This document shows positions 11,117-47,993 of a stretch of 64,000 bases of DNA, piece after piece. A model generated the notes under the pieces. The model saw only the letters and a list, made by a program, of their open reading frames with translations, made no database searches and was not told where the DNA came from. The position numbers and the translations under genes are program-made. Origin of the DNA: Desulfoferula mesophila (GTDB taxonomy: Bacteria > Desulfobacterota > Desulfarculia > Desulfarculales > Desulfarculaceae); contig NZ_AP028679.1 of the NCBI RefSeq assembly GCF_037076455.1, positions 1,503,501-1,567,500 of the forward strand, given 5' to 3'. Positions within the stretch are counted from its first letter, which is position 1, and each line of letters starts with the position of its first letter.

Positions 11117-12295
11117 GTGAAAACCACTTTTTATGAGACAGACAAGTTGAGCACGTTTTTGGCCAGCAAAAAGACCCTGCTGGCCAAGGGGGTAATCTCC
11201 CAGGCGGGGGTGGAGGCCAAGAAGCTGGGGGCCAGGAAGGTTCTGGTGGTCACCGACGCAGGGTTGGTCAAGGCAGGCCTGGTCGACAAGGTGCGCGACG
11301 CGCTGAGCGCCGAGGGCCTGGAGGTAGGAGTGTTCGACGGCATCCTGCCCGAGCCCCCGGCCCGGGTCATCGACCAGTGCGCCGACGAGTTCCGGGCGGG
11401 CGGCTACGACCTGTGCCTGGGCCTGGGGGGCGGCAGTTCCCTGGACTCGGCCAAGATCGTGTCCAACCTGGCGGTGAACCCCGGTTCGGTGCTGGACTAC
11501 GTGGGCATCGATCTTTTGCCCAAGAAGGGCACCCCCCTGATGTTGGTGCCCACCACGGCGGGCACCGGCAGCGAGGCCACCCGGGTCATGGTCTTGACCG
11601 ACGAGGCGGTTAACACCAAGAAGGTGGTGTTCAGCGACTTCCTGCTGCCCGACGTGGCCATCCTGGACCCCGAGCTGACCTTGTCCGTGCCGCCCTCGGT
11701 CACCGCCGACACCGGCATGGACGCCCTGGTGCACGCCATAGAGACCTACGTCGCGGTGAGCAGCACCCCCTACGCGGAGATTCTGGCCCTGCAGGCCATC
11801 GCCATGATCGCCAAGCATCTGCCCCAGGCCTACGCCAAGGGCAGCAGCCTGTTGCCCCGCTACAACATGCTCCTGGCGGCCAACCTCTCGGGCTCGGCCT
11901 TTGCCAGCGGCGGGCTGGGCGCGGTGCACGGCCTGGCCTACGTCTTGGGAACCGAGTATCACATGGCCCACGGCCGCTCCAACGCCATCCTGCTGCCCCA
12001 TGTGATGAACTACAACCTAAGCGGCAACTTGGAAAAGTTCGCCAACATCGCCGAGGCCATGGGCGAAGATATCACCGGCCTGTCGCCCTATGAGGCCGCC
12101 TCCCTTTCGGTGGAGGCGGTGTACTCGCTCATGGAGGCGGTGAGCCTCTCGCCCCAGCTCACCGATTACGGGGTCAGCCGGGACGACTTGCCCAAGCTGG
12201 TGCAGGGGGGCATGGCCCAGGCCCGCCTGTTCATTCCCAACCCCCGGGACCTCACCGAGGCCGACGTGGAGCAGATCTACGCCTCGGCCTTCTAG
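11117..12295 (+). CDS. Iron-containing alcohol dehydrogenase
   Basis: Group III NAD(P)-dependent alcohol dehydrogenase, 392 residues from GTG at 11117. The NAD-binding GGGSSLDSAK motif and the metal-binding Asp and three His (in TGMDALVHAIE, AVHGLAY and HMAHGRSN) are all present. TTG at 11111 overlaps the LivM stop but would directly abut the AAGGAG ribosome site, whereas GTG at 11117 has six-base spacing, so the latter is chosen. It is the last gene of the sigma-54 operon, so it probably oxidises an alcohol released from the imported substrate or reduces an aldehyde. The substrate is not evident. Confidence 0.92.
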   Translation: MKTTFYETDKLSTFLASKKTLLAKGVISQAGVEAKKLGARKVLVVTDAGLVKAGLVDKVRDALSAEGLEVGVFDGILPEPPARVIDQCADEFRAGGYDLCLGLGGGSSLDSAKIVSNLAVNPGSVLDYVGIDLLPKKGTPLMLVPTTAGTGSEATRVMVLTDEAVNTKKVVFSDFLLPDVAILDPELTLSVPPSVTADTGMDALVHAIETYVAVSSTPYAEILALQAIAMIAKHLPQAYAKGSSLLPRYNMLLAANLSGSAFASGGLGAVHGLAYVLGTEYHMAHGRSNAILLPHVMNYNLSGNLEKFANIAEAMGEDITGLSPYEAASLSVEAVYSLMEAVSLSPQLTDYGVSRDDLPKLVQGGMAQARLFIPNPRDLTEADVEQIYASAF

Positions 12296-40439: not shown

Positions 40440-41726
40440 TTGGCGGATATCAAGGCGCAATATCGCACGGTCATGGCCGATCACTTCCCCTCGGAGGTGA
40501 AAATCAACGTGGGCGGCCAGGAGCTGGTCTACAAGAAACGCACCTGGAAGCTCATGGACGGCGGCGAGATGATCGAAAAGGGCTTGCGCTACGGGGAGAA
40601 CCCCGGCCAGGAGGCGGCCCTGTACGAGCTGGTGGGCGGCGGGCTCACGGTGGGCGACCTCCAGCTGGTGGCGCCGGGCATGGGCCTGGTCAGCGCCATC
40701 GACGAGGCCCAGATGCTCCAGGCGGGCAAGCACCCCGGCAAGACCAACCTCACCGACGTGGACGGCGCCCTGCACATCCTGCGCTACCTCACCGACCGCC
40801 CGGCCTGCGCCATCATGAAGCACAACAACCCCTCCGGGGCCGCCGTGGCCGACGACATCTCCACCGCCTATGAGAAGGCCTTCCTGGCCGACCTCATCGC
40901 CGCCTTCGGTGGGGCGGCGGTGCTCAACCGTCCGGTGGACAAGACCACCGCCGAGATGATGCACGAGCTGTACCTGGAGGTGGTGGCCGCGCCCGCCTAT
41001 GAGGAAGGGGCCCTGGAGATACTCAAAAAGGCCAAGAACCTGCGCATCCTGGCCATGCCCCGCATCGCCGAGCTGGCCCAGTGGCGCGACCAGCGCTTCT
41101 TGGACATAAAGTGCCTCATGGACGGGGGCATGGTTTTGCAGACCTCCTCGTTCAACCCCATCAAGACCCCGGCCGACCTGTTGCCCGCCCGCTGTGAGCA
41201 CAACGGCGAGATGGTGGAACCCCTGCGCCAGCCCACTCCGGCGGAGCTGGACGACGTGGTGTTCGGCTGGGCGGTGGAGCAGGGGGTGAGCAGCAACAGC
41301 GTGATCTACGTGAAAGACGGCTGCACCGTGGGCATCGGCACCGGGGAGCAGGACCGGGTGGGGGTGGCCCGCATCGCCGCCCAAAAGGCCTACGTAAAAT
41401 ACGCCAACAAGCTGTGCTGGCTGGCCCACGGCCTCAAGTACGACGAACTGGCCCTGGCCGTGGCCGAGGGCCGCGAGGACCCGGCCAAGATCAAGGCCAT
41501 CGACGAGGCGACCCAGGCCGACAAGGGCGGCCTGCCCGGCTCCATCATGATCTCCGACGCCTTCTTCCCCTTCCGCGACGGCGTGGACGTGGGCCTGGCC
41601 GAGGGGGTGAGCTGCATCGCCCATCCCGGCGGCAGCCTGCGCGACTGGGAGTCCATCGAAGCCTGCAACCAGGCCGACCCGCCGGTGGCCATGGTCTTCA
41701 CGGGGCAACGGGCCTTCAAGCACTAG
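40440..41726 (+). CDS. Stand-alone AICAR formyltransferase (PurH C-terminal domain only)
   Basis: Transfers a formyl group from 10-formyl-tetrahydrofolate to AICAR in purine synthesis. The 428-residue protein has the family motifs LRYGENPGQEA, MKHNNPSGAA (catalytic Lys-His), SSNSVIYVKDG and SDAFFPFRDGVD. It lacks the N-terminal IMP cyclohydrolase domain of normal bifunctional PurH (about 520 residues), so cyclisation must be done by another protein. The start is TTG with an AAGGAGAC ribosome site. I found no second purine gene in the window. Confidence 0.92.
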   Translation: MADIKAQYRTVMADHFPSEVKINVGGQELVYKKRTWKLMDGGEMIEKGLRYGENPGQEAALYELVGGGLTVGDLQLVAPGMGLVSAIDEAQMLQAGKHPGKTNLTDVDGALHILRYLTDRPACAIMKHNNPSGAAVADDISTAYEKAFLADLIAAFGGAAVLNRPVDKTTAEMMHELYLEVVAAPAYEEGALEILKKAKNLRILAMPRIAELAQWRDQRFLDIKCLMDGGMVLQTSSFNPIKTPADLLPARCEHNGEMVEPLRQPTPAELDDVVFGWAVEQGVSSNSVIYVKDGCTVGIGTGEQDRVGVARIAAQKAYVKYANKLCWLAHGLKYDELALAVAEGREDPAKIKAIDEATQADKGGLPGSIMISDAFFPFRDGVDVGLAEGVSCIAHPGGSLRDWESIEACNQADPPVAMVFTGQRAFKH

Positions 41727-44110: not shown

Positions 44111-44190
44111 CGTAGTGCCCCGCCTCGGCGGGCCGGTTGGGTTAAACCGAAATTTCCCGCCCCTGGCGGTTGCAAGTAAAGGATGGATAC

Positions 44191-45351
44191 ATGTCCACGA
44201 TTTTTACCAATGAAGGCATCCGCCGCCTGGTGTTCGGCCAGGGCGCGGCGGCGCGTTTGGGCGAGGAACTGACCCTTTTGGGGGCCAAGCAGGCCCTGGT
44301 GGTCATAGACCCTGCGCTGGCCGGGGCCGAAGCGGTGGGGCCCGCCCTGGAGAGCCTGAAAACGGCCGGGGTGGCTTATGAGGTCTTCAGCGACCTGACC
44401 CGCGAGCCCGAGCCGGCCGAGGCCGACGCCGCCGCCGCCCTGGGCAAAAAGTTGGGCGCCCAGGCCGTGGTGGGCATCGGCGGGGGCAGCGCCCTGGACC
44501 TGGCCAAGGCCGCGGGGGTGCTCATCACCAACCCCGGCCAGGCCACCGACTACGTGGGCCTGGATCTGGTCAAAGAGCCCGGCGTGCCGGTTATCTGCCT
44601 GCCCACCACCGCGGGTACCGGCAGCGAGGTGACCTTCACCGCCGTGTTCACCCGGCGCTCCGACAAGTTCAAGGGCGGCATCAACGGCAGCCTGCTCTAT
44701 CCCCACGCGGCCATCCTGGACCCGTTGCTCACCGTGAGCTGCCCGCCTTACGTCACCGCCATCACCGGCATGGACGCCCTGACCCACGCCATGGAGGCCT
44801 ACACCAGCCTCGCGGCCACCCCCCTGAGCGATCTGAACGCCCTGGCGGCCATCGAGCTGATCGGTCGGCACCTGGCCCCGGCCGTGGCCCACGGCGGCAA
44901 TCTGGAGGCCCGCGAGGGCATGCTGCTGGCCTCCCACCTGGCCGGTCTGGCCCTGGCCCAGGCCGGGGTCGGCGCGGTGCACGCCATGGCCTATCCCCTG
45001 GGCGCCTTCTACGACATACCCCACGGCGAGGCCAACGCCCTGCTGCTACCTTACGTGCTGCGCTACAACCTCATGGCCTGCCCGGAGCGCTTCGCCGCCA
45101 TGGCCTACACCCTGGCCGAGCTGCCCGAGGACCTGAGCACCATGGAGGCGGCGGCCGCCTGCGTGGAGGAGGTCGCCGACCTGAGCGCCATGGTGGGCAT
45201 CCCCACCAGCCTGCGCCAGCTCAAGGTGCCCGAGGACTCGGTGCCCGCCATGGCCGAAAAAGCCATGACCGTGGCCCGGCCCATCGCCAACAACCCCCGC
45301 CGGGTCAGCGCCGAGGACCTGGAGATCATCTACCGCGAAGCCTTTGTGTAG
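44191..45351 (+). CDS. kdnB: Iron-containing alcohol dehydrogenase, KdnB candidate (Kdo 8-dehydrogenase)
   Basis: Group III metal-dependent dehydrogenase, 386 residues, with GGGSALDLAK for NAD binding and all metal ligands (Asp and His in TGMDALTHAME; His in AVHAMAY and IPHGEAN). Followed immediately by a DegT-type aminotransferase and KdsB, it matches the Shewanella kdnB-kdnA-kdsB cluster. There KdnB oxidises the C8 hydroxyl of Kdo to an aldehyde that KdnA aminates. The family alone would only say alcohol dehydrogenase; the specific role rests on gene order. It is clearly different from the paralogue at 11117. Confidence 0.75.
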   Translation: MSTIFTNEGIRRLVFGQGAAARLGEELTLLGAKQALVVIDPALAGAEAVGPALESLKTAGVAYEVFSDLTREPEPAEADAAAALGKKLGAQAVVGIGGGSALDLAKAAGVLITNPGQATDYVGLDLVKEPGVPVICLPTTAGTGSEVTFTAVFTRRSDKFKGGINGSLLYPHAAILDPLLTVSCPPYVTAITGMDALTHAMEAYTSLAATPLSDLNALAAIELIGRHLAPAVAHGGNLEAREGMLLASHLAGLALAQAGVGAVHAMAYPLGAFYDIPHGEANALLLPYVLRYNLMACPERFAAMAYTLAELPEDLSTMEAAAACVEEVADLSAMVGIPTSLRQLKVPEDSVPAMAEKAMTVARPIANNPRRVSAEDLEIIYREAFV

Positions 45352-45364
45352 GGAGTGAGAGAAC

Positions 45365-46558
45365 ATGCCGGGATTCGAGTGGCTGGGTAAGGAAGAGACC
45401 AAGGCCGTAAACGAAGTGATGCAGCGGGGGGTGCTGTTCCGTTACGAGTTCGCCGACCAGCGCCAAGGGGTGTACATGGTGCGGCGCTTCGAGGAAGAGT
45501 TCGCCGCCTACACCGGCGCGTCCCACGCCCTGGCCGTCACCAGCGGCAGCGCGGCCCTCAAGGTGGCCCTGGCCGCTATGGGCGTCGGCTACGGCGACGA
45601 GGTCATCACCCAGGGCTTCACCTTCGTGGCCACCTGGGAGGCCATCTTGGACTGCGGGGCCAAGCCGGTGTTCTGCGAGGTGGACGAGAGCCTGTGCCTG
45701 GACCCCGAGGACCTCAAGAAGAAGATCACCGACAAGACCCGTTGCATCGTACCGGTGCACATGATGGGAGCCCAGGCCCGCATCAACGAGATCATGGACA
45801 TCGCCAAACAGGCGGGCATCCCGGTGCTGGAAGACACCGCCCAGGCGGCGGGCTGCACCCTTAAGGGCAAGCACGTGGGCACCTTCGGGGCCATGGGCAC
45901 CTTCAGCTTCGACTCGGTGAAGACCCTCACCTGCGGCGAGGGGGGCATGGTCATCAGCAACGACCCCGAGCTGTACCAGAACGCCAGCGAGTACCACGAC
46001 CACGGCCACGACCACAAGCCGGTGGGCCGGGGCAACGAGGGCCGGCGTTTCATGGGCATGAACTTCCGCATGATGGAGCTGCAGGGGGCCCTGGGCGTGA
46101 CCCAGTTGGCCAAGCTGGACAAGATGGTGGCCACCCAGCGGGCCAACAAGGCCGCCCTCAAGGAGGCCCTGGCCCGGGTTCCCGGGGTGAGCTTCCGTTA
46201 TCTGCCCGACGAGGCCGGCGACTCGGCCACCTTCCTGGCCTGGTTCCACGAGACTCCCGAGGCCGCCACGCGCTTCGCCGGCCTCTTGGCCGAGGAGGGC
46301 GTGCCGGCCATCCCCTGGGGCAAGAACACCTGGCACGCCTATCCCCATTGGGAGCACCTGCACGCGGGCGCATCCCTGGCCAAGAGCGGCTGGCCCTTCG
46401 ACCGGCCCGAGGGCCGGGCCGAGTATGACGCCGACGCGCTGCCCCAGACCGACGCCATCCTTTCCCGCTGCCTGAGCTGGCAGATCATGCTGGGCTGGGA
46501 CGAGGCGCGCCTGAAGCACATGACCGAGGTAATCAACCGCGTCGCGGCGGCGATGTAG
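45365..46558 (+). CDS. kdnA: DegT/DnrJ/EryC1-family aminotransferase, KdnA candidate
   Basis: PLP-dependent sugar aminotransferase, 397 residues. The PLP lysine lies in FSFDSVKTLTCGEGG; other motifs are TSGSAALKVAL, EDTAQAAG and FRMMELQGALG. In the kdnB-kdnA-kdsB arrangement it would convert 8-oxo-Kdo to 8-amino-3,8-dideoxy-Kdo (Kdo8N), a component of lipopolysaccharide core. It begins 13 bases after the dehydrogenase and ends 5 bases before kdsB. An O-antigen amino sugar role is the alternative, but no other O-antigen genes are nearby. Confidence 0.8.
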   Translation: MPGFEWLGKEETKAVNEVMQRGVLFRYEFADQRQGVYMVRRFEEEFAAYTGASHALAVTSGSAALKVALAAMGVGYGDEVITQGFTFVATWEAILDCGAKPVFCEVDESLCLDPEDLKKKITDKTRCIVPVHMMGAQARINEIMDIAKQAGIPVLEDTAQAAGCTLKGKHVGTFGAMGTFSFDSVKTLTCGEGGMVISNDPELYQNASEYHDHGHDHKPVGRGNEGRRFMGMNFRMMELQGALGVTQLAKLDKMVATQRANKAALKEALARVPGVSFRYLPDEAGDSATFLAWFHETPEAATRFAGLLAEEGVPAIPWGKNTWHAYPHWEHLHAGASLAKSGWPFDRPEGRAEYDADALPQTDAILSRCLSWQIMLGWDEARLKHMTEVINRVAAAM

Positions 46559-46563
46559 AAACC

Positions 46564-47310
46564 ATGGCCCTGCACGTAATCATCCCGGCCCGCTACGGCT
46601 CCAGCCGCTTTCCGGGCAAGCCCCTGGTGAAGATCGCGGGCCGGCCCATGATCCAGCACGTCATGGAGCGGGCCTCCCGGGCCCAGGGGGTGGCCACCGT
46701 GGCCGTGGCCACCGACGACGAGCGGGTGGCCCGGGCGGTGGAGGCCTTTGGCGGCAAGGCGATCATGACCCCGGAGGCCTGCCGCAGCGGCAGCGACCGG
46801 GTGGCCCTGGCCGCCCAGTCTCTGGGCCTGGGCGACGACGAGCTGGTGGCCAACGTGCAGGGCGACCAGCCCCTGCTGCCGCCGGAGGTGCTGGAGGAGT
46901 GCGCCGCGCCCCTATTGGCCGAGCCTGAGCTGGGCCTGGCCACCCCGGTGGTGGCCATCACCAACCCCGGCGAGGTGCCCGACCCCAACCACGTCAAGAC
47001 GGTGATGGACGTGCGCGGCAACGCCCTGTATTTCTCGCGCCTGCCGGTGCCCTTTCCCCGCGATGGCGAGGAGACCACCTATTACAAGCACCTGGGGGTC
47101 TACGTCTTTCGCAACAGCTTCCTCGGCCTCTTCGCTTCCCTGCCCACCGGCACCCTGGAGCAGGTGGAAAAGCTGGAGCAGCTGAGGGCCCTGGAGCACG
47201 GCCACCCGGTGCGCTGCGTGATCACCCGCCACGACTCGCCGGAAGTGGACCGCCCCGGCGACGCCCTCAGGGTGGAGGGAATCCTCCTGGGCGGCGGCCA
47301 GGGCGACTGA
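46564..47310 (+). CDS. kdsB: 3-deoxy-manno-octulosonate cytidylyltransferase (CMP-Kdo or CMP-Kdo8N synthetase)
   Basis: Activates Kdo, or Kdo8N, with CTP for lipid A glycosylation. The protein is 248 residues with N-terminal PARYGSSRFPGKPL, the metal-site VQGDQPLLPPE and KHLGVYVFRNSFL. Its position directly after KdnA suggests it activates the amino form, as reported for Shewanella KdsB. No second kdsB is seen here. Confidence 0.93.
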   Translation: MALHVIIPARYGSSRFPGKPLVKIAGRPMIQHVMERASRAQGVATVAVATDDERVARAVEAFGGKAIMTPEACRSGSDRVALAAQSLGLGDDELVANVQGDQPLLPPEVLEECAAPLLAEPELGLATPVVAITNPGEVPDPNHVKTVMDVRGNALYFSRLPVPFPRDGEETTYYKHLGVYVFRNSFLGLFASLPTGTLEQVEKLEQLRALEHGHPVRCVITRHDSPEVDRPGDALRVEGILLGGGQGD

Positions 47311-47315
47311 GAGTC

Positions 47316-47993
47316 ATGAACCTGGAGCCGGGCCGGAGCGCCTTTTTCGGGGCGGGCCCGGCCTGGCTTTTCTATGGGGCCGGGGCCTTGTCCCTGGCCC
47401 TGTTGTTTTGGGGCCTGGCCCGGCGCAGTGGCCGCGAGCCCGTGGGCTGGGATCCCCGGCGCTGGCTCCTTTTGGGGCCGTTGTGGCCCGTGGCCCCGGT
47501 GCGGGCCGTTCTATTGGCCCTGGCCTGGTGGCCCTTGTGGCTCATGGCCTTGGGCAGCGCCCTGTGGCAGGCCCATCTTTGGCTTTTCCCCTTCCTGCGC
47601 GGTCCGCTCTATCCCGGCTTTTCCTGGGCCATGGATTGGCTGGGGGCCGTCTTCACCATAGCCTGCGGCGCGTTGTTTCTGCTGCGTTTCATCGTGTGGT
47701 TCAAGGGGCCGGCCCCGGTGAGCCTGTGGGCCCTGCTGTTGGGCTCTCTCACCGGATTCAGCGGCTTTGTGGCCGAGGCGGCGCGTCTGAGTGCCACCCG
47801 GCCCGATTGGGCCTGGTCCTCCTCGGTGGGCATGCGGCTGGCCGAGCTTTGGATAGGCGGGGCCACGGACACGGCCTTGCTGGTCACCTGGTGGGCGCAC
47901 GCCGGGCTGGGGCTTTTGGCCCTGGCCCTGTTGCCCTGGGTGCGGGTTGCCTGGCCGGGCCCTTGCGCTCCCGAGCCGCCGGTGGCATCTTAG
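47316..47993 (+). CDS. Multi-pass membrane protein, possible NarI/DsrM-like cytochrome b domain
   Basis: A 225-residue protein with about five or six hydrophobic segments. I do not recognise it firmly. The helix arrangement and histidines in WQAHLWLF and WWAHAGLGLL recall the haem-binding membrane subunits of nitrate reductase gamma and HdrE/DsrM, but only two candidate haem ligands are obvious. It starts five bases after kdsB and ends six bases before recN, so it is probably co-transcribed with them; the function may be unrelated to either. Confidence 0.65.
   Translation: MNLEPGRSAFFGAGPAWLFYGAGALSLALLFWGLARRSGREPVGWDPRRWLLLGPLWPVAPVRAVLLALAWWPLWLMALGSALWQAHLWLFPFLRGPLYPGFSWAMDWLGAVFTIACGALFLLRFIVWFKGPAPVSLWALLLGSLTGFSGFVAEAARLSATRPDWAWSSSVGMRLAELWIGGATDTALLVTWWAHAGLGLLALALLPWVRVAWPGPCAPEPPVAS

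Follow-up and report, generated by a model that had tools for sequence, protein, structure and literature searches.

A predicted 8-amino-Kdo module with a non-KdnB dehydrogenase in Desulfoferula mesophila and other Desulfobacterota

Gene content of the locus

The window analyzed here (64,000 nucleotides from the single 4.48-Mb contig of the Desulfoferula mesophila genome) contains three consecutive genes, encoding an iron-dependent alcohol dehydrogenase (Fe-ADH), a DegT-family aminotransferase and KdsB (Table 1). Their products matched, respectively, PF00465 and PF25137 (E-values of 8e-44 and 8e-59), PF01041 (3e-91) and PF02348 (3e-54). The close packing described in the initial annotation was confirmed, the intergenic gaps being 13 and 5 nt. 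The start of the Fe-ADH was placed at the ATG at 44191; the mechanically delimited ORF begins earlier, at a TTG at 44170. A divergent PFK gene is located 166 nt upstream of the Fe-ADH. The order dehydrogenase-kdnA-kdsB is kept by relatives in the genus, the family and the order and also in Desulfobacterota families farther away, and at other loci of the phylum the alternative order kdnA-kdnB was observed, with kdsB next in several of them.

Table 1. Coordinates of the three genes and of selected codons and motifs in the window
Feature	Position	Strand	Basis or remark
Fe-ADH of type A (386 aa), predicted to oxidize Kdo at C8 with NAD+ in place of KdnB	44191..45351	+	PF00465/PF25137
Thr150 codon (FucO Asn151 position)	44638..44640	+	Thr common to type A and KdnB
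Asn165 codon (FucO Val166 position)	44683..44685	+	Asn common to type A and KdnB
KdnA, predicted PLP-dependent 8-amino-Kdo aminotransferase, 397 aa	45365..46558	+	5k8b match
Lys186 codon, predicted PLP Schiff-base lysine	45920..45922	+	invariant in 17/17 KdnA
KdnA signature DHGHDH, residues 212-217	45998..46015	+	invariant in 17/17 KdnA
KdsB, predicted CMP-Kdo/CMP-Kdo8N synthetase, 248 aa, sole genome copy	46564..47310	+	TIGR00466, PF02348

Two further ORFs in the window were recorded. A 225-aa membrane ORF (47316-47993), with recN beyond it, begins 5 nt past kdsB; it shows ∼35-80% conservation within the family and has no Pfam, NCBIfam or PHROG match. A PurH-like ORF of 428 aa (40440-41726) matched AICARFT_IMPCHas (PF01808), scored under the NCBIfam purH cut-offs and possibly encodes a separate AICAR formyltransferase.

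Among solved structures, the best match of the aminotransferase was KdnA of Shewanella oneidensis (5k8b; E-value of 4.4e-103 over residues 1-393), and the runner-up DegT enzyme reached only 4.4e-48. The window protein is 44% identical to the Shewanella enzyme. In an alignment of 17 sequences (the window protein, 15 Desulfobacterota homologues and S. oneidensis KdnA), the residues invariant with the Shewanella protein were K186, which, as in the DegT family, is predicted to form the Schiff base with PLP, together with D157, the DHGHDH motif, R33, R235, R278, N321, H324 and W329. No DHGHDH motif was seen in the part of 2c7t, a related DegT protein, that was covered by the alignment. In view of its full-length closeness to 5k8b and the agreement of catalytic and signature residues, the aminotransferase is, as first annotated, KdnA (EC 2.6.1.109), with transamination of 8-oxo-Kdo as its predicted activity.

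The KdsB protein scored above the cut-offs of four curated NCBIfam models (TIGR00466, NF003950, NF003952 and NF009905). Across the genome, the kdsB model TIGR00466 matched this gene only, and a second, weak PF02348 match belonged to a MocA-like ORF rather than to a KdsB. The question of a second kdsB, raised in the initial annotation, was thus answered in the negative for the source genome by both profile searches. KdsA was likewise detected in one copy over the cut-off. The window KdsB carries the motif QGDQP, in place of the QGDEP of Escherichia coli KdsB. This change was considered as a marker of 8-amino-Kdo (Kdo8N) and rejected: the glutamine is present in all KdsBs encoded beside a window-like KdnA, yet it is shared by 33 KdsBs from genomes lacking KdnA. 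The substitution follows kinship and is widespread in the phylum whether or not KdnA is present. Some relatives (G001, G002, G006 and G010) possess a second KdsB with QGDEP (L218-L221), which the source genome lacks. This second copy in members of the same genus was also rejected as part of the module, since its neighbours (at L218/L219, immediately adjoining) are 2-hydroxyacid dehydrogenase, Gfo/Idh/MocA, SIS-isomerase or nucleotide-sugar genes.

The dehydrogenase and its distribution in the phylum

The dehydrogenase had been taken for KdnB, an assignment that failed on both the ranking of PDB matches and phylogeny. Its best PDB matches were 1,3-propanediol and methanol dehydrogenases, headed by the 1,3-propanediol oxidoreductase 3bfj (E-value of 3e-80), with KdnB (5k8c) distant at 9e-25. 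In a tree of 71 Fe-ADH proteins, the kdnA-linked sequences of this kind, here termed type A, grouped with the propanediol and methanol dehydrogenases, separated by a very long branch from the KdnB types; the boundary between type A and the other Fe-ADHs had moderate support (88). No KdnB-type match was detected in the source genome at 1e-60. By sequence, then, the protein is a member of an Fe-ADH subfamily other than that of KdnB, which is FeADH3/cd08184, with KdnB as its characterised representative (PMC5125639).

When aligned with FucO, both the metal ligands (D195, H199, H264 and H278) and the NAD-binding residues (D40, at the position of FucO Asp39, G97-S100 and D103) are intact, so that a nicotinamide-linked reaction, which would suit an anaerobe, is expected of the type-A enzyme. 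In FucO, Asn151 and Val166 line the substrate pocket (PMC10324492). The first position is occupied by Thr in all 32 type-A and all 24 KdnB-type proteins but in none of 40 other Fe-ADHs, and the second by Asn in 32/32, 23/24 and 1/40, respectively; the Thr/Asn pair thus occurs in 55 of the 56 type-A and KdnB-type proteins versus 0/40. The pair was also found in three KdnB-like paralogues (G235:C4, G209:C11 and G013:C40; L252-L254), two of them in genomes without KdnA and WaaA matches and the third in a genome that already has type A. Because of these paralogues, the pair is not taken as exclusive to Kdo; it counts as support, short of proof, for a Kdo dehydrogenase role. Another candidate trait, a Tyr where FucO has the relay residue His267, was discarded, as it is present in all type-A and KdnB-type proteins but in 20 of the 40 other Fe-ADHs as well. 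A further Fe-ADH inside the window (11153-12292) has Val/Phe at the two pocket positions and falls outside the Kdn set.

The occurrence of these proteins was surveyed in 218 Desulfobacterota genomes, using gaps in the score distributions: at least 475 bits for KdnA (next score 311), at least 537 for type A (next 493) and at least 589 for the KdnB type, to which one fragment at a contig end was added. KdnA was detected in 54 of the genomes, from 22 families, type A in 37 and the KdnB type in 15. One or the other dehydrogenase was present in 51 of the 54 genomes with KdnA versus 1 of the 164 without it, and the two never occurred together (Fisher p = 6e-45 for the co-occurrence, uncorrected for kinship among genomes that are not independent, and with a count partly shaped by the derivation of the profiles, that of type A in particular, from kdnA-linked sequences). 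The lone KdnA-negative genome with a dehydrogenase (G185) is 76% complete. Among the KdnA-positive exceptions, kdnA lies at a contig end in two (G180 and G258), the sequence breaking off in the direction in which type A is expected, and the third (G012) encodes a divergent KdnB relative (E-value of 5e-42 to 5k8c) adjoining waaA. Where kdnA has no linked dehydrogenase, type A or KdnB was found elsewhere in the genome in all cases examined except G110, in which neither was found.

On the KdnA tree, the type of dehydrogenase switches at least three times, and members of the Desulfobulbaceae/Desulfocapsaceae with a window-like KdnA pair it with KdnB. In the Desulfobulbaceae, an ORF separating kdnA from kdsB was suspected of encoding a third dehydrogenase. 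This was rejected from the loci read (L101 and L118), where the ORF is on the opposite strand and not an Fe-ADH; in genomes such as that of L101, the Fe-ADH is unlinked to kdnA. From its conserved place in the gene order, its co-occurrence with KdnA, its mutual exclusion with KdnB, the switches on the KdnA tree and the pocket residues common to both dehydrogenases, type A looks like a working replacement for KdnB.

Proposed pathway and composition of the inner core

The three genes are interpreted here as a Kdo8N-CMP module, consisting of the type-A Fe-ADH, KdnA and KdsB and feeding WaaA, a reading to which we assign a probability of roughly 0.8 on the basis of sequence and genome comparison. 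The Kdo8N-type function proposed in the initial annotation is thereby retained, together with KdnA, the single KdsB and the packing, but with a dehydrogenase other than KdnB. The type-A enzyme, dependent on NAD+ and a divalent metal, would oxidize free Kdo to an aldehyde at C8, which KdnA would convert by transamination to 8-amino-3,8-dideoxy-manno-octulosonate, a step suggested by its clear membership of the KdnA family. The single KdsB would then activate Kdo8N to CMP-Kdo8N, from which WaaA would transfer the sugar to lipid A. KdsA, KdsB and WaaA are all encoded in the source genome, and we infer that Kdo8N is incorporated into the lipopolysaccharide.

The source genome encodes two WaaA paralogues (G000 C1:2486622-2487155 and C1:910531-911064; L296 and L297), so that, instead of the full replacement of Kdo envisaged in the initial annotation, a mixed Kdo/Kdo8N core is possible. 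In such a core, one KdsB would make both CMP-Kdo and CMP-Kdo8N, WaaA of type I would add Kdo and WaaA of type II would add Kdo8N. This alternative, which we regard as a serious though minority possibility, opposes only the full replacement of Kdo and not the enzymology of the module. In its favour, at least two WaaA copies were found in 35 of the 54 genomes with KdnA versus 23 of the 164 without (p = 3e-12, uncorrected). The comparison was made by copy number and tree, as a type-II profile, tried as a one-step classifier, gave scores overlapping those of type I. The WaaA tree comprises two old clades, types I and II, and of the 15 two-copy genomes with KdnA that were placed on it, 14 have one copy in each; in the exception (G231) the second copy was too divergent to be placed. 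All four single-copy KdnA genomes tested carry type II only, and seven of the eight waaA genes beside kdn genes are of type II. At L121, waaA of type II, the type-A Fe-ADH, kdnA and kdsB are consecutive. On the other side, type II was also present in four of eight KdnA-negative genomes tested, and G231 and G063 deviate from the pattern; a dedicated Kdo8N transferase role for type II is therefore a lead only. Extending the mixed core to the phylum, as a two-branch inner core in which a dehydrogenase-swapped Kdo8N pathway supplies type II with Kdo8N while type I adds Kdo, is slightly less probable.

The loci noted for WaaA of the second clade beside kdn genes, in several genomes, were L121:405-1637, L256, L257, L270, L272, L273 and L267. 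One genome of 1.8 Mb, 97% complete (G274), encodes KdnA and a type-A dehydrogenase, yet has no WaaA match.

The enzymology itself could be challenged in two ways. The linked Fe-ADH might be an ordinary alcohol dehydrogenase, with the true Kdo dehydrogenase encoded elsewhere, as its closest PDB matches and the further Fe-ADHs of the source genome would allow; we consider this improbable, in view of the complementary distributions of type A and KdnB, the retention of type A in KdnA-positive genomes even when unlinked, the Thr/Asn pocket residues and the lack of a KdnB in the source genome. It is just as improbable that the pair acts on another sugar acid (e.g., another ulosonate) with KdsB a mere neighbour. 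In favour of this reading, DegT and Fe-ADH enzymes are versatile and no characterised type-A member was found in this analysis, but the aminotransferase matches 5k8b at the level of KdnA, the adjoining KdsB is the single copy and type A interchanges with true KdnB within one KdnA clade.

Comparison with known systems

The Kdo8N pathway of S. oneidensis comprises KdnB, KdnA and KdsB (Gattis 2013, as cited in PMC5125639; structures 5k8c and 5k8b), and Kdo8N has been termed a hallmark of Shewanella species (PMC6357163). The literature searched on Kdo8N, which did not extend to the primary enzyme papers, concerned Shewanella or contained passing mentions, with none from the Desulfobacterota. The dehydrogenase-swapped variant would be new relative to the literature searched, though the primary papers may already mention these homologues. 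Should the proposed reading hold, amino-sugar inner cores would be common among sulfate reducers and related bacteria, considering that KdnA occurs in about a quarter of the Desulfobacterota genomes sampled, along with dehydrogenases of two interchangeable kinds and a paralogous Kdo transferase linked to it. The type-A dehydrogenase, type-II WaaA and the two-residue pocket signature constitute a testable set, and annotation of the type-A gene as a propanediol or lactaldehyde dehydrogenase would be corrected.

The window KdnA shares fold and PLP chemistry with the DegT sugar aminotransferases of the ArnB, PseC and LegC family, but these score far below KdnA, of which the DHGHDH signature is a feature. 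The nearest characterised relatives of the type-A dehydrogenase are FucO, 1,3-propanediol dehydrogenase and NAD methanol dehydrogenase, whose metal ligands and NAD residues are identical to its own. At the two pocket positions, however, FucO has Asn/Val and the other two enzymes have other residues, in contrast to the Thr/Asn of type A, and genomic linkage to kdnA distinguishes type A from all three. Compared with the Shewanella pathway, the module shares an orthologous KdnA, a KdsB within the operon and an Fe-ADH partner. It differs in that the dehydrogenase derives from another Fe-ADH subfamily and that its host belongs to the Desulfobacterota, whose KdnA-containing genomes often carry two WaaA proteins.
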